The notes under the pieces were generated by a model, which searched no databases, was not told the DNA's origin, and was given only the letters and a program-made list of their open reading frames with translations. From Billgrantia desiderata (lineage in GTDB: Bacteria; Pseudomonadota; Gammaproteobacteria; Pseudomonadales; Halomonadaceae): 64,000 bases of DNA. The position numbers and the translations under genes were made by a program. Shown piece by piece: positions 12,036 to 41,249 of the stretch. Location of the stretch: NCBI GenBank assembly GCA_011742915.1, contig JAAQTN010000015.1, positions 36,315 through 100,314 of the forward strand, read 5' to 3'. Positions within the stretch are counted from its first letter, which is position 1, and every line of letters starts with the position of its first letter.

Positions 12036-13232
12036 ATGGCCGACCAGAGCAGCGATCAGGAGAAGACCGAAGAGGCCACGCCTCGACGCCTCGAGAAGGC
12101 GCGCGAGGAAGGCCAGGTCGCCCGCTCCCGAGAGCTGACCACCTTCATGTTGCTGTTGGGTGGTGTGGTCGGCATGTGGTCGATGGGGGCGCTGCTCTAC
12201 GATCAGCTCGGGTTGGTCATGGAGCAGGCCTTTCTGTTCGAGCGGCGTCAGGCCTTCGAGACCGGCCCCATGCTGAGCAATGTGCTCGATCTGGGAACGC
12301 GCACACTGCTGACCATGCTGCCGCTGTTTCTGTTGCTGACCCTGGTGGCCCTGGTCGCGCCGGCGCTGCTGGGTGGTTGGCTGATTTCGGCCAAGTCGCT
12401 CAAGCCGCAGATGTCGAAGCTCAACCCCTTCAAGGGTCTGAAGCGCATGTTCGGCACCCAGGCGCTGGTCGAGCTGTTCAAGGCGGTGGCCAAGTCGACG
12501 CTGATAGGCGGGGTAGGCATGGCCTACCTCTACTTCAACCGCGGCGAATACCTGTCGTTGATGGACCAGCCAACCACCCAGGCATTGGCCCGAGCGTTGA
12601 TGATGGCTGCCCAGGCCTGCGGACTGATGGTGCTGACCCTGCTGGTGGTGATTCTGATCGACGTGCCCTACCAGCTGTGGAGTCACGCCAAGAAGCTGCG
12701 TATGTCCAAGGAAGAGGTCAAGCGCGAGCACAAGGAGTCGGAGGGCGACCCGCACGTCAAGGCGCGGATTCGCTCCCAGCAGCAGGCGATGGCGCGTAGC
12801 CGCATGATGAGCAAGGTACCGGAGGCCGACGTGATCATCACCAACCCTACCCATTATGCCGTGGCGTTGCAGTATGACGAGACGCGCATGGGGGCTCCCC
12901 GCGTGGTGGCCAAGGGCGCCGACATGGTGGCGGTACGTATTCGTGAGCTGGGCGCGGAAGCCGGCGTTCCGCTGCTGCAGGCACCACCGCTGGCGCGGGC
13001 GCTGTATCATCACGTCGATCTGGACCGCGAGATTCCGCTGGATCTGTATACCGCCGTGGCGGAAGTGCTGGCCTGGGCCTTCCGTCTCAAGCACGTTACC
13101 CAAGAGGGGGGAGAGGTGCCGCCTACACCCGAAGACTTGCCCATTCCGGAGAGCCTGGCTGTGCCGGCTACCGACGCGGCCGATGGCATAACTGACCAGG
13201 GACCGTCCGTGTCCGATGGAGCGCGTCGATGA
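12036..13232 (+). CDS. flhB: Flagellar type III export switch protein FlhB
   Basis: FlhB is an inner-membrane component of the flagellar export gate that switches substrate class after self-cleavage. The 398-residue product has a charged N terminus (EKTEEATPRRLEKAREEGQV), four membrane helices and the cleavage motif Asn270-Pro-Thr-His (IITNPTHYAVAL), one residue from the E. coli position. A tail of about 45 residues rich in Pro and acidic residues follows the cytoplasmic domain. The stop overlaps flhA (ATGA). The 171 bases between cheZ and flhB hold no gene. Confidence 0.97.
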   Translation: MADQSSDQEKTEEATPRRLEKAREEGQVARSRELTTFMLLLGGVVGMWSMGALLYDQLGLVMEQAFLFERRQAFETGPMLSNVLDLGTRTLLTMLPLFLLLTLVALVAPALLGGWLISAKSLKPQMSKLNPFKGLKRMFGTQALVELFKAVAKSTLIGGVGMAYLYFNRGEYLSLMDQPTTQALARALMMAAQACGLMVLTLLVVILIDVPYQLWSHAKKLRMSKEEVKREHKESEGDPHVKARIRSQQQAMARSRMMSKVPEADVIITNPTHYAVALQYDETRMGAPRVVAKGADMVAVRIRELGAEAGVPLLQAPPLARALYHHVDLDREIPLDLYTAVAEVLAWAFRLKHVTQEGGEVPPTPEDLPIPESLAVPATDAADGITDQGPSVSDGARR

Positions 13233-15310
13233 AATCCCTGAGCCATATTATCGGGCGTCGTGACTGGCTGGGCGACGTGCGCATGAAGCTGCTGGCCGGT
13301 CCGATCCTGATCATCATGATCCTCGGCATGATGATCGTGCCGTTGCCACCCTTCGCGCTCGACCTGCTGTTCACCTTCAATATTGCGCTGGCGGTGATGG
13401 TGCTGCTGGTCAGCATGTTCACCCAGAAGCCGCTCGATTTTGCCGCTTTCCCGGCGGTACTGCTGTTCACCACGCTGCTGCGGCTGTCACTCAACGTGGC
13501 TTCGACCCGGGTCATCCTGATGGAAGGCCACCAGGGCGGTGATTCCGCGGGCAAGGTGATCGAGGCCTTCGGGCAGTTTCTCATCGGCGGCAACTTCGCC
13601 GTGGGCCTGGTGGTGTTCCTGATTCTCGTCATCATCAACTTCATGGTCATCACCAAGGGCGCGGGGCGTATCGCCGAGGTCGGCGCGCGTTTCATGCTCG
13701 ATGCCATGCCCGGCAAACAGATGGCCATCGACGCCGACCTCAACGCAGGCCTGATCGGCGAAGAAGACGCACGCAAACGGCGTGCCGAAGTGGCCCAGGA
13801 GGCCGATTTCTACGGCTCAATGGACGGTGCCAGCAAGTTCGTGCGTGGCGATGCCATGGCCGGCCTGGTGATCATGGTGGTCAACATCATCGGCGGGCTG
13901 CTGATCGGCATGCTGCAGCACGGCATGGGTTTCGGCGATGCCGCCAAGACCTACACCCTGATGACTATCGGCGACGGCCTGGTGGCCCAGATTCCCGCCC
14001 TGATCATTTCCACCGCTGCCGGTGTGACCGTGTCTCGCGTGAACACCGAACAGGACGTCGGCCAGCAGATGATCAGCCAGCTGTTCGTCAACCCCCAGGT
14101 CATGGTGCTGGCGGCGCTGGTCATGGGTCTGCTTGGCCTGGTGCCCGGCATGCCCAACCTGGTGTTCCTGATCTTCACCGGCCTGCTGGCCGGCCTGGCC
14201 TGGATGCTGACGCGCCAGAAGGAGCAGCAACTGGTGGAGCAAGAGCTGAATACCGAGCCACCACCCCCGCCCGAGGCACCCGAGGCCAGTTGGGACGACG
14301 TGCAACTGGTCGACACCCTGGGGCTGGAGGTCGGTCATCGCCTGATTCCGCTGGTGGATCAGCGTCAGGACGGCGAGCTGCTGGGCCGCATCAAGAGCGT
14401 GCGCAAGAAATTCGCCCAGGAGGTCGGGTTCCTGCCCGCCGTGGTGCACATACGCGACAACCTGGAGCTGGGTGCCAACACTTACGTGATCACCCTGAAG
14501 GGAGCCGAGATCGGCCGCGCCGAAGCCTTCCCGGGACAGTGGCTCGCCATCGACCCCGGTCAGGTCACCGGCCAGCTGCAGGGCACGCCGACCGCCGACC
14601 CGGCATTCGGTCTGCCGGCGATCTGGATCGACGCGGGTCAGCGCGAGCATGCCCAGGTGTATGGCTATACCGTGGTCGATGCCGGCACGGTGATCGCTAC
14701 CCATCTCAACCACTTGCTGCACCGTCATGCGCCCGAGATGCTCGGCCGCCAGGAGGTGCAGAAGCTGCTCGACAAGCTGGGCGAGGAGCAGAAGTCTCTG
14801 GTCGAGGATGTCGTGCCCAAGGCCGTCAACCTGACGGCGCTGCAACGTATCCTGCAGAATCTGCTGGAAGAGGATGTCTCCATTCGCGACATGCGTACCA
14901 TACTGGATACGTTGGCCGAGTACGCCCCGCACCAGCAGGACATCAACGAGCTGACGGCGCTGGTACGCATTGCCCTCGGGCGGGCAATTACTCAGCAGTG
15001 GTATCCAGGGCGCGATACGCTGAACGTGATCGGCCTGGATGCCCAGCTCGAGCAGGTACTGATGCAGGCCATGAACGGCAACGGATCGCTCGAGCCTGGG
15101 CTGGCGGAAACGCTGATGAGTCAGGCCGAACAAGCCGTCGAGCGGCATGAGGCCAGCGGAGAGCCGCCGGTACTGGTGGTTCAGCACAGCCTGAGACCGT
15201 TGCTGGCCAGGTTCCTGCGTCGGCGCATGCGCCATCTGGTGGTCATGTCGCAGGCGGAGATACCCGATGATCGGACACTGCGCGTCACGACGCTGGTGGG
15301 AGGTCGATAA
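13229..15310 (+). CDS. flhA: Flagellar export gate protein FlhA
   Basis: FlhA is the large export-gate protein of the flagellar type III apparatus, with about eight membrane helices (residues about 20-335) and a large cytoplasmic substrate-docking domain. Recognisable segments are the FHIPEP-family stretch around FPAVLLFTTLLRLSLNVAST, GDGLVAQIPALIISTAAG, and the cytoplasmic block IRDNLELGANTYVI. Length (693) is normal. A run of prolines (EPPPPPEAPEA, about 345) forms the linker between the two halves. It overlaps flhB by four bases and lies 3 bases before flhF, so the three are an operon. Confidence 0.98.
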   Translation: MKSLSHIIGRRDWLGDVRMKLLAGPILIIMILGMMIVPLPPFALDLLFTFNIALAVMVLLVSMFTQKPLDFAAFPAVLLFTTLLRLSLNVASTRVILMEGHQGGDSAGKVIEAFGQFLIGGNFAVGLVVFLILVIINFMVITKGAGRIAEVGARFMLDAMPGKQMAIDADLNAGLIGEEDARKRRAEVAQEADFYGSMDGASKFVRGDAMAGLVIMVVNIIGGLLIGMLQHGMGFGDAAKTYTLMTIGDGLVAQIPALIISTAAGVTVSRVNTEQDVGQQMISQLFVNPQVMVLAALVMGLLGLVPGMPNLVFLIFTGLLAGLAWMLTRQKEQQLVEQELNTEPPPPPEAPEASWDDVQLVDTLGLEVGHRLIPLVDQRQDGELLGRIKSVRKKFAQEVGFLPAVVHIRDNLELGANTYVITLKGAEIGRAEAFPGQWLAIDPGQVTGQLQGTPTADPAFGLPAIWIDAGQREHAQVYGYTVVDAGTVIATHLNHLLHRHAPEMLGRQEVQKLLDKLGEEQKSLVEDVVPKAVNLTALQRILQNLLEEDVSIRDMRTILDTLAEYAPHQQDINELTALVRIALGRAITQQWYPGRDTLNVIGLDAQLEQVLMQAMNGNGSLEPGLAETLMSQAEQAVERHEASGEPPVLVVQHSLRPLLARFLRRRMRHLVVMSQAEIPDDRTLRVTTLVGGR

Positions 15311-15313
15311 GCG

Positions 15314-17536
15314 ATGAGTGTGATGCGGTTCCTGGGAGCCAACAGTCGCGAAGCCATGCGCCAGGTGCGTGCCGCACTTGGTGACGAAGCGCTGATTCTG
15401 GCCAATCGACATACCGAACAGGGGGTCGAGATTCTGGCGATGGCCGAGTCGGCTACGCCGACGCCCAGCGAGGCGATTCGCCAAAAGCAGCCCGAGCCCG
15501 AGGCTCCCGCTGGGCAAGCGATGCCGACCGGCGCAGACCCGGCCCAGGCTCAGGTACAGGCTTTCGAGGCCATGAGTGCCAGGTTGCTCGAGGAGATGCG
15601 TGACATGCGCGCTCTGCTGGCGCGCGAGAGAAGCCGACCGGAGACGGGCGGCGCAGCCGGCGAGCAGTTCGTGCGGGCAATGCTCGAAGCGGGTTTCAGC
15701 CCGGCGCTGGCCGAAGAGGTCGTCGCGTCGTTGCCGGAAGAGCTGGCTGGTGTCGAAGCGCTGGACGAGCGTGCCATGGCTTGGCTCTTACGTCAGCTGT
15801 CCAAGCGACTCGAAGGCCTGGACGACGAAGCCGCCTTCATGGATCGCGCCGGCATCGTGGCGCTGATCGGTCCTACCGGCGTAGGCAAGACCACCACCAC
15901 GGCCAAGCTGACGGCACGCTATGTCATGCGCCACGGCACCCGGCCGGTGGCTCTGGTGACCACCGACAGCTTCCGTATCGGAGCCCATGAGCAGTTGCGT
16001 ATCTATTCGCGGCTGCTCGACGTTCCCATGTACGCCCTCAACGCCGACCAGCCGGTGTCGGATCTGCTCGAGCGGATGAAGGGCAAGTCCTGCGTCATCA
16101 TCGACACGGTGGGTATGAGCCAGCGCGATCAGCGTGTGATCGAACAGATCGGTCACCTGCGCGGCGGCAACACCTCGGTGCGGCTGGTGCTGCTGCTCAA
16201 CGCTGCCAGTAATCCGGAGACCCTGGAAGAGGTGGTGGTGCGCTATCGTCAGGCGGCCCAGGCGGCCGGTGGCGAGCTCAATGACTGCATCATCACCAAG
16301 CTGGACGAGGCGGGCAGACTGGCCCCGGTACTGGACATCGTCATGCGCCACGGGCTGCGACTGCTGTTCGTCTCTCACGGCCAGCGGGTGCCGGAGGACA
16401 TGGCCCTGGCCGAGCCCGTCTCGCTCATCGAGCAGTGTCTGGCCAATCGTGTGCCCCTGGCTCGTTCCACCACCTCGCCGACGGCCGCAGACATCTCCTC
16501 GCGCGGTGCCGGCAATCTGCTGGGGCAGGGGCGCCGCCTGGCAACGGTGCTGCAGGCGTTGCGCCAGCGCTTACCGGCCTTCGACGGGCTGGAAGCCGTA
16601 TGGAATCTGCTGGGTCTGCCGGCTTCCGTGCAGCAGCAGCGTCTCGATGCGCTACTGGCAGATCATCCCCGAGCCGGCCAGGCTCACGGCATGCTGTGGA
16701 GCGAGCGGCGACGCGTTCCTGGCGAGCACTGGGCGATGCCCGACGTGGCACTGAATGCACAAGGAACCTGGCTGGCGCTGCCGCTGTTGCAGCATCGCCA
16801 GGTGGCGGGCCAACAGGCCCGTCTCGAAGGCGCGTTGCAGCACCACGTTGCCGGTGTGCATCTGATGAATGGGCTACCCGATGCCGAGGCCGGCGACTGG
16901 CTGGAGCGTCAGGGCCTGTCCTGGTGCAGCCAGGTTCGGAGCAGCTTGCGGGTCGCCCATGCGGGCGAGCGTTACAGCTTGGCTGCGCTGGAGTCGATGG
17001 CCGAGCCCACCGGTCAGGTTCGCTGCCGTTTCCGCGGCGCGCCTGCACGCCTCATGCTCGCGACGCTGCCGGTAGAGGTGAGCTTCAAGGGCAGCCGCCG
17101 TGAACGGTCGGGCTTCGACGCGCAGGCCTGGTTTGGTGAGGTTCGCGATGCAGAGAGCGGCAAGGCCTTGGCCAGACGCTATTGGATCGTACCCGCCGGG
17201 CTGAGCCGCGACCCCGAACCGCTGCTGCTTGCGCTGCTGCAAGCCGATGTGCTGCCGCAACTCGCACGCCGCGCCTGGCAGCGTCTCGAGCCGACCGAGG
17301 CTGGCGACCTGCGTGCCGATGTCCGCTTGCTCATGGCCAGCGGTCTGGCCACGGTGGCAGCCCACCTCGACCTTGCCGAAGACGAAGCCGCCATGGATCT
17401 CAGAGCCGAGCTGCTGGGTCTTGGCGGTGGGCGTCGCCGACGCCGAGACGTGGCGCTGCTCGAGTCTCTGCTACAACTTTTCCTGGTGCGCGATGCCATT
17501 CGCCACCTTGGCCTCGGTGAACGGGAGACAGGCTAG
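15314..17536 (+). CDS. flhF: Flagellar SRP-type GTPase FlhF with a long C-terminal extension
   Basis: FlhF is an SRP-family GTPase that sets flagellar position and early assembly at the membrane. The B and N domains are followed by a complete G domain: P-loop GPTGVGKTTTTAKL (from residue 186), TTDSFRIGAHEQL, DTVGMSQRD and TKLDEAG. This core ends near residue 381, where ordinary FlhF proteins of about 370-490 residues would be complete or nearly so. Here an uninterrupted frame continues for about 355 more residues to 740 with no family that I recognise. Composition and codon use of the extension look like the host's, and no frameshift or stop marks the junction. The next gene starts directly at the stop codon (TAGATG). 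Confidence 0.93.
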   Translation: MSVMRFLGANSREAMRQVRAALGDEALILANRHTEQGVEILAMAESATPTPSEAIRQKQPEPEAPAGQAMPTGADPAQAQVQAFEAMSARLLEEMRDMRALLARERSRPETGGAAGEQFVRAMLEAGFSPALAEEVVASLPEELAGVEALDERAMAWLLRQLSKRLEGLDDEAAFMDRAGIVALIGPTGVGKTTTTAKLTARYVMRHGTRPVALVTTDSFRIGAHEQLRIYSRLLDVPMYALNADQPVSDLLERMKGKSCVIIDTVGMSQRDQRVIEQIGHLRGGNTSVRLVLLLNAASNPETLEEVVVRYRQAAQAAGGELNDCIITKLDEAGRLAPVLDIVMRHGLRLLFVSHGQRVPEDMALAEPVSLIEQCLANRVPLARSTTSPTAADISSRGAGNLLGQGRRLATVLQALRQRLPAFDGLEAVWNLLGLPASVQQQRLDALLADHPRAGQAHGMLWSERRRVPGEHWAMPDVALNAQGTWLALPLLQHRQVAGQQARLEGALQHHVAGVHLMNGLPDAEAGDWLERQGLSWCSQVRSSLRVAHAGERYSLAALESMAEPTGQVRCRFRGAPARLMLATLPVEVSFKGSRRERSGFDAQAWFGEVRDAESGKALARRYWIVPAGLSRDPEPLLLALLQADVLPQLARRAWQRLEPTEAGDLRADVRLLMASGLATVAAHLDLAEDEAAMDLRAELLGLGGGRRRRRDVALLESLLQLFLVRDAIRHLGLGERETG

Positions 17537-18121
17537 ATGGGATGGGACCAGGCCGCAGGCTTGCGCCAATGGGCAAATGGAACGACGCAGGATGAGTGCC
17601 CGACACACGTGGCCGAGATGCTGGTCGAGCTGGCCACGGGAAACAAGTCGGAGAATACCCGGCCCAAGCGGGCCAGCGCCCAGCCTGCCGCTGCCAAGGC
17701 AGCGCCTGTGCCGCCGCGGTCAGCGGGCAGTGCGCGGGAGCGGACGCTGATGGTGCTGGGGTTGCCGGGCACTGCCGAGCGACACACCGCACGGGTCAGC
17801 GAATTGCTCGAGAGCTGGGCCCAGGAGGGACGGAGCTGGGTGGGCGATCCCGGTACCTGGCGTATCGTGGCGCTACCGATTGCCAGCCCGCACCTGTCGC
17901 TGCTGGCAGCACAGCAATCTCAATGGGCACTGTGGATAGACGACGACCTGGAGGCGTTCCGCCGCGGCTATCGCATGCTCAAGCAGATCGCCGAGCAGGG
18001 TGGGCCGCGACGCTTGATTGCCGTGCATCCGCCGGGCGTGGGGCGGCAGGGGCTGCTGAGCAATCTCCAGTACGTTGCGCAAGCGTATTTCGATATCGAA
18101 CTGTTGGTATTGGCGAGATGA
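17537..18121 (+). CDS. FlhG-like protein without ATPase domain, possible FlhF activator
   Basis: This 194-residue protein sits where the MinD-like ATPase FlhG (FleN) is normally encoded. It lacks a Walker A motif (no GKGGVGKT). Two parts still look like FlhG. Residues 4-10 read DQAAGLR, which fits the DQAxxLR helix by which FlhG stimulates FlhF GTPase activity. The last ~70 residues (DDDLEAFRRGYRMLKQIAEQ, then LLSNLQYVAQAYFDIELL) resemble the C-terminal helices of the MinD fold in FlhG. Between them is an Ala/Pro-rich linker. The ATG directly follows the flhF stop, and the gene overlaps flhE by ATGA. A reduced FlhG specialised as FlhF activator is an inference; an unrelated protein remains possible. 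Confidence 0.75.
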   Translation: MGWDQAAGLRQWANGTTQDECPTHVAEMLVELATGNKSENTRPKRASAQPAAAKAAPVPPRSAGSARERTLMVLGLPGTAERHTARVSELLESWAQEGRSWVGDPGTWRIVALPIASPHLSLLAAQQSQWALWIDDDLEAFRRGYRMLKQIAEQGGPRRLIAVHPPGVGRQGLLSNLQYVAQAYFDIELLVLAR

Positions 18122-18534
18122 AACCGTTCAGCCTGCGGCAACTCTGTTTTCTGACTCTTGGCGGGCTGTGGGCGGGCCTGGCTCAGGCGGCCGGCAGTTG
18201 GGTGGCCACGGCTCCTGCGGTGCAGGTCGTCATGGCCGAGCGACCCGCCATGTCCGCTGCCTTGTTGCCGCCATCTCCCGAACTGGCACGTGGGCAGGTG
18301 ATGGGCCGCGTGGTCTGGCAGTTTGAGTCGCCCGCCGGCAGGGAGGTGAATGCCTGGCTCTGCCACCCGGGGGACTGCATTCGCCTGCCCGGGCCGCGAG
18401 GGCAGACCGAGGCCCTGGCCGGGGTGCCGGCCGATACACCACTCAACTTTCAGTTTTCCCTACAGGAGCGTGGGCAGCGTGCCGCAACCCTGCAGGGGCT
18501 GCAAGTGATCGTGAATCACGACGACCTGCAGTGA
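18118..18534 (+). CDS. flhE: Flagellar periplasmic protein FlhE
   Basis: FlhE is a small periplasmic protein encoded after flhA in enteric bacteria and linked to rod assembly and to preventing proton leakage through the export gate. The 138-residue product has a clear signal peptide (cleavage after GLAQA, about residue 24). The mature part matches FlhE in its landmarks: an N-terminal GSWVATAP, the disulfide-like pair WLCHPGDCIRLPGPRGQTEAL, LAGVPADTPLNF and the terminal VIVNHDD (E. coli ends in VIVNYR). The ATG overlaps the preceding stop (ATGA 18118-18121), which fixes the start. Confidence 0.88.
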   Translation: MKPFSLRQLCFLTLGGLWAGLAQAAGSWVATAPAVQVVMAERPAMSAALLPPSPELARGQVMGRVVWQFESPAGREVNAWLCHPGDCIRLPGPRGQTEALAGVPADTPLNFQFSLQERGQRAATLQGLQVIVNHDDLQ

Positions 18535-18597: not shown

Positions 18598-19305
18598 ATG
18601 TACACAGCACGAGGCAAGATCGAACAGGCAGACCTGCTGGAGGAGTACCTGCCGCTGGTGAGGCGCCAGGCGCTGTCCATGCAGGTTCGACTGCCGGCAA
18701 GTATCGAGCTCGATGATCTGATCCAGGCCGGCACCGTGGGGTTGCTCGAGGCGATGGGTCGCTTCGATGCCACTCAGGGGGCGAGTTTCGCTACCTTTGC
18801 CAGCCAGCGTATCCGTGGCGCCATGCTGGACGAGCTGCGCAGCCGCGACTGGCTGCCTCGCAGCGTGAGGCGTAACGCCCGGGCGGTCGATGAGGCCGTG
18901 CGCAGTCTGGAACAGAAGCTCGGCCGGGCGGCAGACGAGCTTGAAATAGCCGCCGAGCTCGACATGGAGCTCGAGGAGTATCGCCAGCTACTCAGTGATA
19001 CCAACAGCGGCCATCTGCTGCCCTTCGAGGTGCTCGTCTCGGAAGGCGCCGAACCCGGCATCGAGGACGCTTCGCTCGATACGCCTTATCACATGCTCAT
19101 CGACGAGGAGCGGCGTCGACAACTGGTCGATGGCATCGAGGCACTGCCCGAGCGTGAAAAGCTGCTGATGGCACTCTATTACCAGGAAGAGCTCAACCTG
19201 AAGGAGATCGGCGCTGTGCTCGGTGTCACCGAGTCGCGAGTGTGCCAGCTGCACAGCCAGGCGGTAAGCCGGTTGCGGGCACGCTTGGCGGACAGCGACG
19301 CCTAG
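18598..19305 (+). CDS. fliA: RNA polymerase sigma factor FliA (sigma-28)
   Basis: FliA directs transcription of late flagellar and chemotaxis genes. The 235-residue product has sigma regions 2 (DLIQAGTVGLLEAMGRFD, SFATFASQRIRGAMLDELRS), 3 (RSVRRNARAVDEAVRSLE) and 4 (LPEREKLLMALYYQEELNLK, then the helix-turn-helix VTESRVCQLHSQAVSRLR). Length is typical. Four promoters of its class are visible in this window (881, 7717, 21637 and minus-strand 31977-32003), which supports its activity. Convergent with the EAL-HDOD gene downstream. Confidence 0.97.
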   Translation: MYTARGKIEQADLLEEYLPLVRRQALSMQVRLPASIELDDLIQAGTVGLLEAMGRFDATQGASFATFASQRIRGAMLDELRSRDWLPRSVRRNARAVDEAVRSLEQKLGRAADELEIAAELDMELEEYRQLLSDTNSGHLLPFEVLVSEGAEPGIEDASLDTPYHMLIDEERRRQLVDGIEALPEREKLLMALYYQEELNLKEIGAVLGVTESRVCQLHSQAVSRLRARLADSDA

Positions 19306-40241: not shown

Positions 40242-41249
40242 ATGAAGGATTTACTTGATAAACGCCTGCTCTGGGTAGGCGGCAAGGGGGGCGTGGGCAA
40301 GACCACCGTGGCCGCATCCCTGGCGGTACTGGCAGCGCGACGGGAGCGGCGTGTGCTGGTGGTCTCCACCGATCCGGCGCATAGTCTGGGCGACGTGTTC
40401 GATCGCCAGTTGGGCGACGTGCCGCGGCGTCTGCTGCCCAATCTCGATGCCATGGAGATCGACCCGGATGCCGAGGTGGAGGCGCACCTGACGCGGGTCA
40501 CCGAGCAGATGCGTCGCTTCGCGGCACCGCAGATGATGGCGGAGCTCGAGCGCCAGATGCGCTTGACCCGACAGTCGCCGGGAACCCAGGAGGCGGCGCT
40601 GCTGGAGCGGCTCTCGCGGCTCATCACCGCCGAGGACCCCGAGCACGACCTGATCATCTTCGACACTGCCCCCACCGGCCATACCCTGCGCCTGCTCAGC
40701 CTGCCCGAAGCGATGGCCGCCTGGACCGATGGCCTGCTGGCCCACAATCGCAAGTCCGAGGAGCTGGGCAAGGTGTTGTCGCATCTGACGCCCAAGCGCG
40801 GGCGCGACGTTGCCACCCCCTTCGACGACCCCCAGGAGGACCCGCTCAGCGGTCTCGACGAGCGCACCCGGGACGTGGCACGCACCCTGATCGAACGGCG
40901 CCGGCTCTTCCACCAGGCACGCCGTCGGGTCGAGGATCCCGAGTGTACCGGCTTTCTCTTCGTGCTGACCCCGGAGCGGCTGCCGATCCTCGAGACCGCC
41001 CGCGCCGTGGCGGCACTCGAGGCGGTGAAGATCCCGGTGGCCGGCACGCTGGTCAACCGGGTGATTCCCGATGAGGCCGATGGCGACTTCCTGCGCGCTC
41101 GCCGCCAGCAGGAGGCCAGCTACCTGGCACGTATCGATGCCGAGCTGGGCCATCTACCGCGTCCCCGGCTGCCTTGGCTGCCCACCGACGTACAGGGCCT
41201 GGCCACCCTCGAGGAGCTGGCCGACCGGCTGGAAGCGATCGGGTTCTGA
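40242..41249 (+). CDS. TRC40/Get3/ArsA-family ATPase
   Basis: A 335-residue single-domain ATPase of the Get3/ArsA group. It shows the deviant P-loop GGKGGVGKTTVAASLA (from residue 13), switch I STDPAHSLGDVF, switch II FDTAPTGHTLRLL, and the family ending VQGLATLEEL. There is only one Cys, so the CxxC zinc dimer site of eukaryotic Get3 is missing, and no arsenic genes are near. Being third in the cstA operon, it may energise, assemble or load the transporter or its Cys-Cys partner (inference). Classical arsenite-pump ATPase ArsA is a less likely reading. Confidence 0.9.
   Translation: MKDLLDKRLLWVGGKGGVGKTTVAASLAVLAARRERRVLVVSTDPAHSLGDVFDRQLGDVPRRLLPNLDAMEIDPDAEVEAHLTRVTEQMRRFAAPQMMAELERQMRLTRQSPGTQEAALLERLSRLITAEDPEHDLIIFDTAPTGHTLRLLSLPEAMAAWTDGLLAHNRKSEELGKVLSHLTPKRGRDVATPFDDPQEDPLSGLDERTRDVARTLIERRRLFHQARRRVEDPECTGFLFVLTPERLPILETARAVAALEAVKIPVAGTLVNRVIPDEADGDFLRARRQQEASYLARIDAELGHLPRPRLPWLPTDVQGLATLEELADRLEAIGF

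Follow-up and report, generated by a model that had tools for sequence, protein, structure and literature searches.

What remains of FlhG when its ATPase is gone? The question is raised by a small gene between flhF and flhE of Billgrantia desiderata, in a stretch of 64,000 nucleotides (contig JAAQTN010000015.1, positions 36,315 to 100,314 of the forward strand) that was analysed as a whole and is called the window here. The open reading frame (ORF) at 17537-18121 encodes a protein of 194 residues that starts MGWDQAAGLRQW, carries DQAAGLR at residues 4-10 and has no Walker A motif; the length, the motif and the missing Walker A had been described in the first-pass annotation of this DNA. On the basis of its sequence relationships, we read this protein as derived from FlhG. 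It is probably an ATP-free FlhG, composed of a helix that stimulates FlhF and a core that docks to the C-ring, with the flhF-FlhG pair originating from a betaproteobacterial lineage. Its parts are as follows (dN and dS, nonsynonymous and synonymous divergence).

17537..18121, + strand: ATPase-less FlhG remnant (P0001), ORF of 194 amino acids
17546..17566, + strand: DQAAGLR, FlhF-activating (enhancer) helix motif, residues 4-10; kept in 98 of the 99 homologues read
17576..17740, + strand: hypervariable linker, residues 14-68, joining the helix to the core; mean dN 0.583, dS 1.23
17741..18118, + strand: core, residues 69-194, homologue of the C-terminal half of FlhG; stops short of the FlhG C-terminal tail
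17981..18088, + strand: stretch with the positions that correspond to C-ring docking residues, K149, N176 and Y184 (Geobacillus FlhG K177, R207 and F215 by alignment, numbering checked)

Kinship of the small protein with FlhG

Homology of the core to FlhG was established by profile comparison after removal of the motif. HHalign scored 96.7% with Burkholderiales FlhG, 60.3 with other gammaproteobacterial FlhG, 28.5 with Pseudomonadales FleN and 0.2 with FlhF, and 20 column shuffles used as a control reached at most 0.8%. The resemblance spans 84-106 aligned columns; it had been noticed before, but only for the last 70 or so residues, which is too short. When 398 genomes of the phylum were scanned (E-value threshold 0.001), only three matches were found outside the halomonad family, and each was an FlhG-like ORF directly 3' of FlhF. 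Searched against 177,635 PDB sequences, the family profile ranked P. aeruginosa FleN in the top three places, aligned in its C-terminal region, with E-values of 0.036-0.041 that are marginal when taken alone. Pfam and NCBIfam searches of the 194-residue protein listed no family at E-values up to 10, although the HMMER filters discard most weak matches.

In structure prediction, the full-length model is weak (pLDDT 64.9), with a low-confidence helix at residues 5-15, and Foldseek ranks a reductase first, so that the structure search was rejected as sole proof of FlhG identity. In the VIA comparison, FlhG headed the rows for both predicted models. Aligned to 4rz2, of which the modelled chain has 258 residues, the protein stops with the strand near residue 225.

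A separate, complete flhG in the same genome, named in the first-pass annotation as a finding that would speak against its proposal, was not found in searches with PF13614 and with P. aeruginosa FleN (106 contigs, stated completeness 100%). The eight PF13614 matches resemble ParA, MinD, an ArsA/Get3-like protein, a small ParA, two Wzc-like kinases, Mrp/ApbC and a CpaE/TadZ-like protein, with labels assigned by eye and not by profile, and the best FleN match (54.5 bits) was to the MinD-like ORF. The ArsA/Get3-like ATPase among them lies within the window at 40242-41249.

Gene order, spread and selection in halomonads

The small FlhG is tightly packed into its operon. Its ATG abuts the flhF stop codon with zero gap (TAGATG), and its own stop codon shares ATGA with the start of flhE. 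The neighbouring genes are listed below.

12036..13232, + strand: flhB (PF01312, E 2.5e-129)
13229..15310, + strand: flhA (PF00771, E 4.2e-274)
15314..17536, + strand: flhF, signal recognition particle (SRP)-type GTPase of 740 amino acids (TIGR03499, 224.7 bits at a cut-off of 174.15)
18118..18534, + strand: flhE (PF06366, E 1.7e-18), with the ATGA overlap
18598..19305, + strand: fliA, flagellar sigma factor (TIGR02479, E 8.9e-82)

Using the single protein as a query (E-value threshold 0.001), we found a relative in 78 of 151 genomes of the halomonad family; a 49-row profile (E-value threshold 0.01) raised this to 106 genomes from 13 of 24 genera. FlhF scored above its cut-off in 123 of the 151 genomes, and a comparison of the two tables by eye places the small FlhG in 105 of these. 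Among the 28 genomes without FlhF over the cut-off, only G137 carries the small FlhG, and its FlhF is split. The 18 genomes with FlhF and no small FlhG fall into two sets. Fifteen of them, from g3, g5, g22 and g24, have a short FlhF frame of 424-477 codons (six were read directly). The other three, from g8, have a long FlhF and have lost the small FlhG; in the two that were read directly (L102, L103), flhF is followed by flhE.

In all 57 halomonad loci checked (55 genomes, with G005 and G139 counted twice), flhF immediately precedes the small FlhG on the same strand, and 2-40 nucleotides separate the flhF stop codon from the D of the motif. In ten g4 and g16 loci, FlhA, FlhE and FliA were not found within the 8.5 kb taken around flhF and the small FlhG. 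The pair in g4 and g16 (L104-L112) is separated from the flagellar operon, and its neighbours are genes labelled by eye as transporter, TetR-like or metabolic. In L096-L101 (g3, g5, g22, g24), a short, Pseudomonadales-type flhF is followed directly by fliA, with no FlhG between them. A FleN query of six short-FlhF halomonad genomes gave matches of at most 68 bits.

Conservation was evaluated for 99 of the 106 halomonad copies, the remaining 7 being unread. No DQA filter was applied in this count, but the profile behind it was built from alignment A1; A1 itself was rejected as evidence of motif conservation, because most of its rows had been picked by a pattern requiring DQA.GLR. The motif is present in 98 copies (DQAAGLR in 82, DQASGLR in 13, DQAQGLR in 2 and DQATGLR in 1), and the single copy without it in frame, from G137, is frameshifted and has it in another frame. 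The seven motif residues are encoded by 84 different 21-nucleotide sequences among the 98 copies, so that conservation acts on the protein and not on the DNA. Mean column entropy is 0.11 bits in the motif versus 2.05 bits in the core. Even the loose P-loop pattern GxxxxGK[ST] was found in none of the 98 motif-bearing copies. From the motif DQAxGLR to the end, the window protein has 191 residues and the halomonad copies a median of 168.5, and the linker varies strongly in length among relatives.

Substitutions were counted in 36 pairs from nine close relatives (the window, seven named Billgrantia and one Halomonas metagenome-assembled genome). Residues 4-13 differ by 106 synonymous and no nonsynonymous changes, and the core has a mean dN of 0.087 and dS of 1.005 (dN/dS about 0.09). 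The gene is therefore under purifying selection at both ends. Within the core, W101, L177 and L189 are invariant in all 98 copies. The docking positions carry K or R in 90 of 98 copies (K177 of Geobacillus), N in 89 (R207) and F or Y in 84 (F215). Two of the three positions are thus kept in most halomonad copies, while the R207 position differs; in Burkholderiales, too, N is more frequent at that position than any other residue (27 of 44). The text of the Geobacillus docking paper gives R207 as Arginine 277 and its result gives R207E; residue 207 of the chain is an arginine.

FlhG in other lineages and the origin of the halomonad pair

FlhG-like ORFs 3' of FlhF were also compared in three samples: 44 from Burkholderiales (40 of 59 FlhF-bearing genomes, G366, G396 and G504 found with the halomonad profile, and B. 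glumae found by BLAST), 20 of the 52 FlhF-bearing genomes of other Pseudomonadales (three of the 52 are halomonads) and 40 of 138 from other members of the class. DQAxxLR is present in 43 of the 44 Burkholderiales proteins (exception L165). KGGxGK[ST] was found in none of them, and GxxxxGK[ST] is missing in 36; a named example of a decayed site is WP_012734297.1 of Burkholderia glumae pBGF2. Decay of the site is graded: K remains in 1 of 44 proteins in the signature lysine column and in 14 in that of the P-loop lysine. GK[ST] occurs within 60 residues after the motif in 10 of 44 and in none of the other 34, so that nucleotide binding may persist in some of these proteins. A uniformly dead ATP site across Burkholderiales was accordingly ruled out.

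Outside Burkholderiales and halomonads, the picture is different. Of the 20 loci from other Pseudomonadales, 18 have an FlhG, always with KGGxGK and never with DQAxxLR, and no FlhG-like ORF follows FlhF in L183 and L185. Among the 40 loci from other members of the class, 39 have an FlhG with KGGxGK, and 24 of these have strict DQAxxLR; the locus without an FlhG-like ORF, L230 (family f11), is listed under Burkholderiales though grouped here. The scored ATP-site positions are intact in 57 of 57 gammaproteobacterial FlhGs sampled outside halomonads and Burkholderiales.

From the motif onwards, 42 of 43 Burkholderiales FlhGs measure 237-331 residues (median 285, n = 43), so that by medians the halomonad protein is about 115 residues shorter. 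The remaining protein, L171 (G417:C1:590949-594719), is an FlhG shortened independently to 106 residues counted from the motif, in which DQAEGLRRLL adjoins the C-terminal half. A plasmid of Paraburkholderia sp. PGU19 (L133:2965-3867) encodes an orphan MinD/ParA-like protein that is related to betaproteobacterial FlhG and lacks the DQA motif; no flhF is annotated in the stretch shown.

FlhF itself was analysed with a tree of 95 NG domains (quick IQ-TREE search), from which six rows without P-loop pattern and L115 had been dropped, and for which groups had been reduced to 24 (plus the window), 28, 22 and 14 rows, short halomonad FlhF being represented by six. Long halomonad FlhF clusters with Burkholderiales at a Shimodaira-Hasegawa-like approximate likelihood ratio test (SH-aLRT) value of 96, with one long-branched row from elsewhere inside the cluster, and short halomonad FlhF falls within Pseudomonadales (SH-aLRT 98). 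The g8 FlhFs (L102, L103) sit on a very long stem of 1.56 changes per column, as if constraint had been released.

The FlhF of the window keeps G1-, G3- and G4-like motifs (GPTGVGKTT, IDTVGM, TKLDE) and has a C-terminal extension of about 350 amino acids (residues ~390-740) for which no Pfam family was the best match. All 28 tested halomonad FlhFs that are paired with a small FlhG have the extension, as do both g8 FlhFs; among 44 Burkholderiales it was found only in G317 (E 9.7e-15). Functions of the FlhG parts that were lost may have passed to this extension.

Among regulators, FlhC is present in 18 of 18 long-FlhF halomonads tested, 0 of 5 short-FlhF halomonads, 11 of 24 Burkholderiales and 0 of 15 other Pseudomonadales; in the source genome, flhC (of the FlhDC master regulator) is located on the contig of the window at G000:C14:31981-32496, about 3.8 kb to its left. 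FleQ at 40 bits or more was found in 0 of 18, 0 of 5, 0 of 24 and 12 of 15 of the same groups, and a FleQ search of the source genome gave no match at an E-value of 1e-5. The correlation with FleQ is not without exceptions, and shared descent confounds it; a strict coupling of the small FlhG to FleQ loss or FlhC presence was rejected because of such exceptions.

Since full-length Burkholderiales FlhG already lacks KGGxGK and halomonad FlhF lies in the Burkholderiales clade, an active ATPase was probably not truncated in halomonads. The ATP site probably decayed first in the betaproteobacterial lineage, and halomonads acquired that system and shortened FlhG further. We infer horizontal transfer of the flhF-FlhG pair from a betaproteobacterial lineage with a decayed ATP site and without FleQ, including the direction of the transfer.

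A proposed ATP-free adaptor, its alternatives and its meaning

A December 2025 review presents FlhG as a MinD-type ATPase; its ATP cycle and its stimulation of FlhF jointly determine how many flagella form and where. The review also describes the motif glutamine as co-catalytic for the FlhF GTPase homodimer (PMC12826062). In B. subtilis, FlhG Q8A resembles an flhG deletion, from which the authors infer that FlhF stimulation is the central role of FlhG in flagellar distribution; FliY binds nucleotide-free FlhG (PMC12327844). FlrA binds only the ATP dimer of FlhG, and FliM docks without nucleotide (PMC11236974). FlrA, GpsB and the membrane all require the ATP dimer (PMC11236974, PMC12327844).

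Having lost the P-loop and the C-terminal tail that targets known FlhGs to the membrane, the small FlhG is not expected to form the ATP-dependent dimer, to cycle at the membrane or to exert FleQ/FlrA control, and it would lack both the dimer and membrane binding. The kept parts are those that act independently of ATP and the lost parts those that require it, and we therefore propose an ATP-free adaptor. The protein would be an FlhG that has abandoned ATP and consists of the DQAxGLR helix, a loose linker and the C-terminal half of the MinD-like fold. By analogy with known FlhGs, the N-terminal helix would give its glutamine to the FlhF homodimer and trigger GTP hydrolysis, and the core would offer a nucleotide-free docking surface for FliM or FliY. 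Produced beside FlhF through coupled translation, the small FlhG would most likely capture C-ring subunits with its core; on arrival, the helix would discharge FlhF and so reset it at each assembly step.

How does this proposal compare with other explanations? An unlikely one is that the helix alone matters and that the core is a passive folded tail keeping it soluble. The motif is indeed the most conserved stretch by column entropy, and the g4 and g16 proteins, where they align, share just 23-32% identity with the window protein. However, the dN/dS of the core, its three invariant residues, the two mostly kept docking positions and the retention of the C-terminal half in the independently shortened L171 all speak for a core that does something, and together the purifying selection and the docking positions suggest more than a bare activator. 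The first-pass annotation, which took the gene for an FlhG cut down to an FlhF activator, was right in the descent, in the loss of the ATPase motif and in the prominence of DQAxxLR, but not in restricting the protein to activation, and halomonads probably did not start from an FlhG with an active ATPase. That the small FlhG arose by shortening of a Pseudomonadales FleN native to the family, without betaproteobacterial transfer, has little probability: halomonads belong to the same taxonomic order as the bearers of FleN, but DQAxxLR is missing from 18 of 18 FlhGs found in the other Pseudomonadales sampled (a passage of PMC12713375 likewise states that Pseudomonas FlhG lacks it), and the nearer kinship of the core to Burkholderiales, the FlhF tree and the FlhF extension shared with one Burkholderiales genome point elsewhere.

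Two further readings are very improbable. CheY-like and reductase folds score nearly as high as FlhG in structure comparison, and Pfam and NCBIfam match none, as might be seen for an unrelated flavodoxin/CheY-like protein with a convergent DQAxxLR helix. Convergence would not account for the HHalign results without the motif, for the nature of the three matches in the phylum scan, or for an operon position identical to that of flhG. Slightly less probable still is a decaying pseudogene or non-functional flhG leftover, despite the many length variants, the loss in g8 and the frameshift in G137, as the frame is open in 98 of the 99 copies read, from 13 genera, and both motif and core are under strong purifying selection.

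The proposed ATP-free FlhG can be set against known systems. It shares with FlhG/YlxH of Bacillus and Geobacillus (4rz2, 4rz3) the N-terminal DQAxxLR helix, the C-terminal half of the fold and, at two of the three positions, the residues for C-ring docking, as well as the place right after flhF, which is the rule (PMC12826062). Unlike it, the window protein lacks a P-loop (the Bacillus/Geobacillus protein has K36, and D60) and the tail that provides a C-terminal membrane-targeting sequence, next to an ATP-dependent dimer, in that FlhG (PMC12826062). Burkholderiales FlhG, as in B. glumae, is closest, with DQAxGLR, a lost KGGxGK, a position directly 3' of flhF and the nearest profile match to the core; it differs in its MinD-like length and in the occasional GK[ST], and B. 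glumae has no space for FlhE between FlhG and FliA. Shewanella and Vibrio FlhG, the canonical ATP switch, stimulates FlhF by the motif, as is proposed here, and nucleotide-free FliM docking has been proposed as common, but it has its own ATP-dependent dimer, FlrA binding and polar recruitment (in part from PMC11236974). P. aeruginosa FleN has the same operon position (flhF-FlhG-fliA) and a homologous C-terminal half and is otherwise the mirror image, with an intact ATPase motif and without DQAxxLR (PMC12713375, in part). FleN acts on FleQ.

The link to several or lateral flagella that the first-pass annotation drew is unproven. Billgrantia antri has been described with one polar or peritrichous flagella (passage of PMC10690426), and B. 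cenocepacia, the FlhG of which is outside our sample, can bear a single polar flagellum (passage of PMC4905959).

A report of an FlhG without its ATPase was not found in the open-access literature by title or abstract. Two functions of FlhG are split in nature, with the FlhF-activating helix but no ATPase motif in halomonads, and the ATPase but no helix in Pseudomonas FleN, which makes the contribution of the ATP cycle directly testable. The small FlhG is also a minimal protein for structural study with FlhF and the C-ring. More tentatively, and with slightly less than even confidence, Burkholderiales and halomonads may operate the FlhF switch with no functional ATPase in FlhG, through a nucleotide-free adaptor that couples C-ring arrival to FlhF discharge and of which the halomonad protein would be the minimal form; the 10 of 44 Burkholderiales FlhGs with GK[ST] lower the odds of such a lineage-wide reading. 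Loss of FleQ control would then have let the ATP site decay before the beta-type operon entered halomonads, in a step towards the enteric flagellum without FlhF and FlhG. The small FlhG is a candidate intermediate for how enteric bacteria came to dispense with both proteins.
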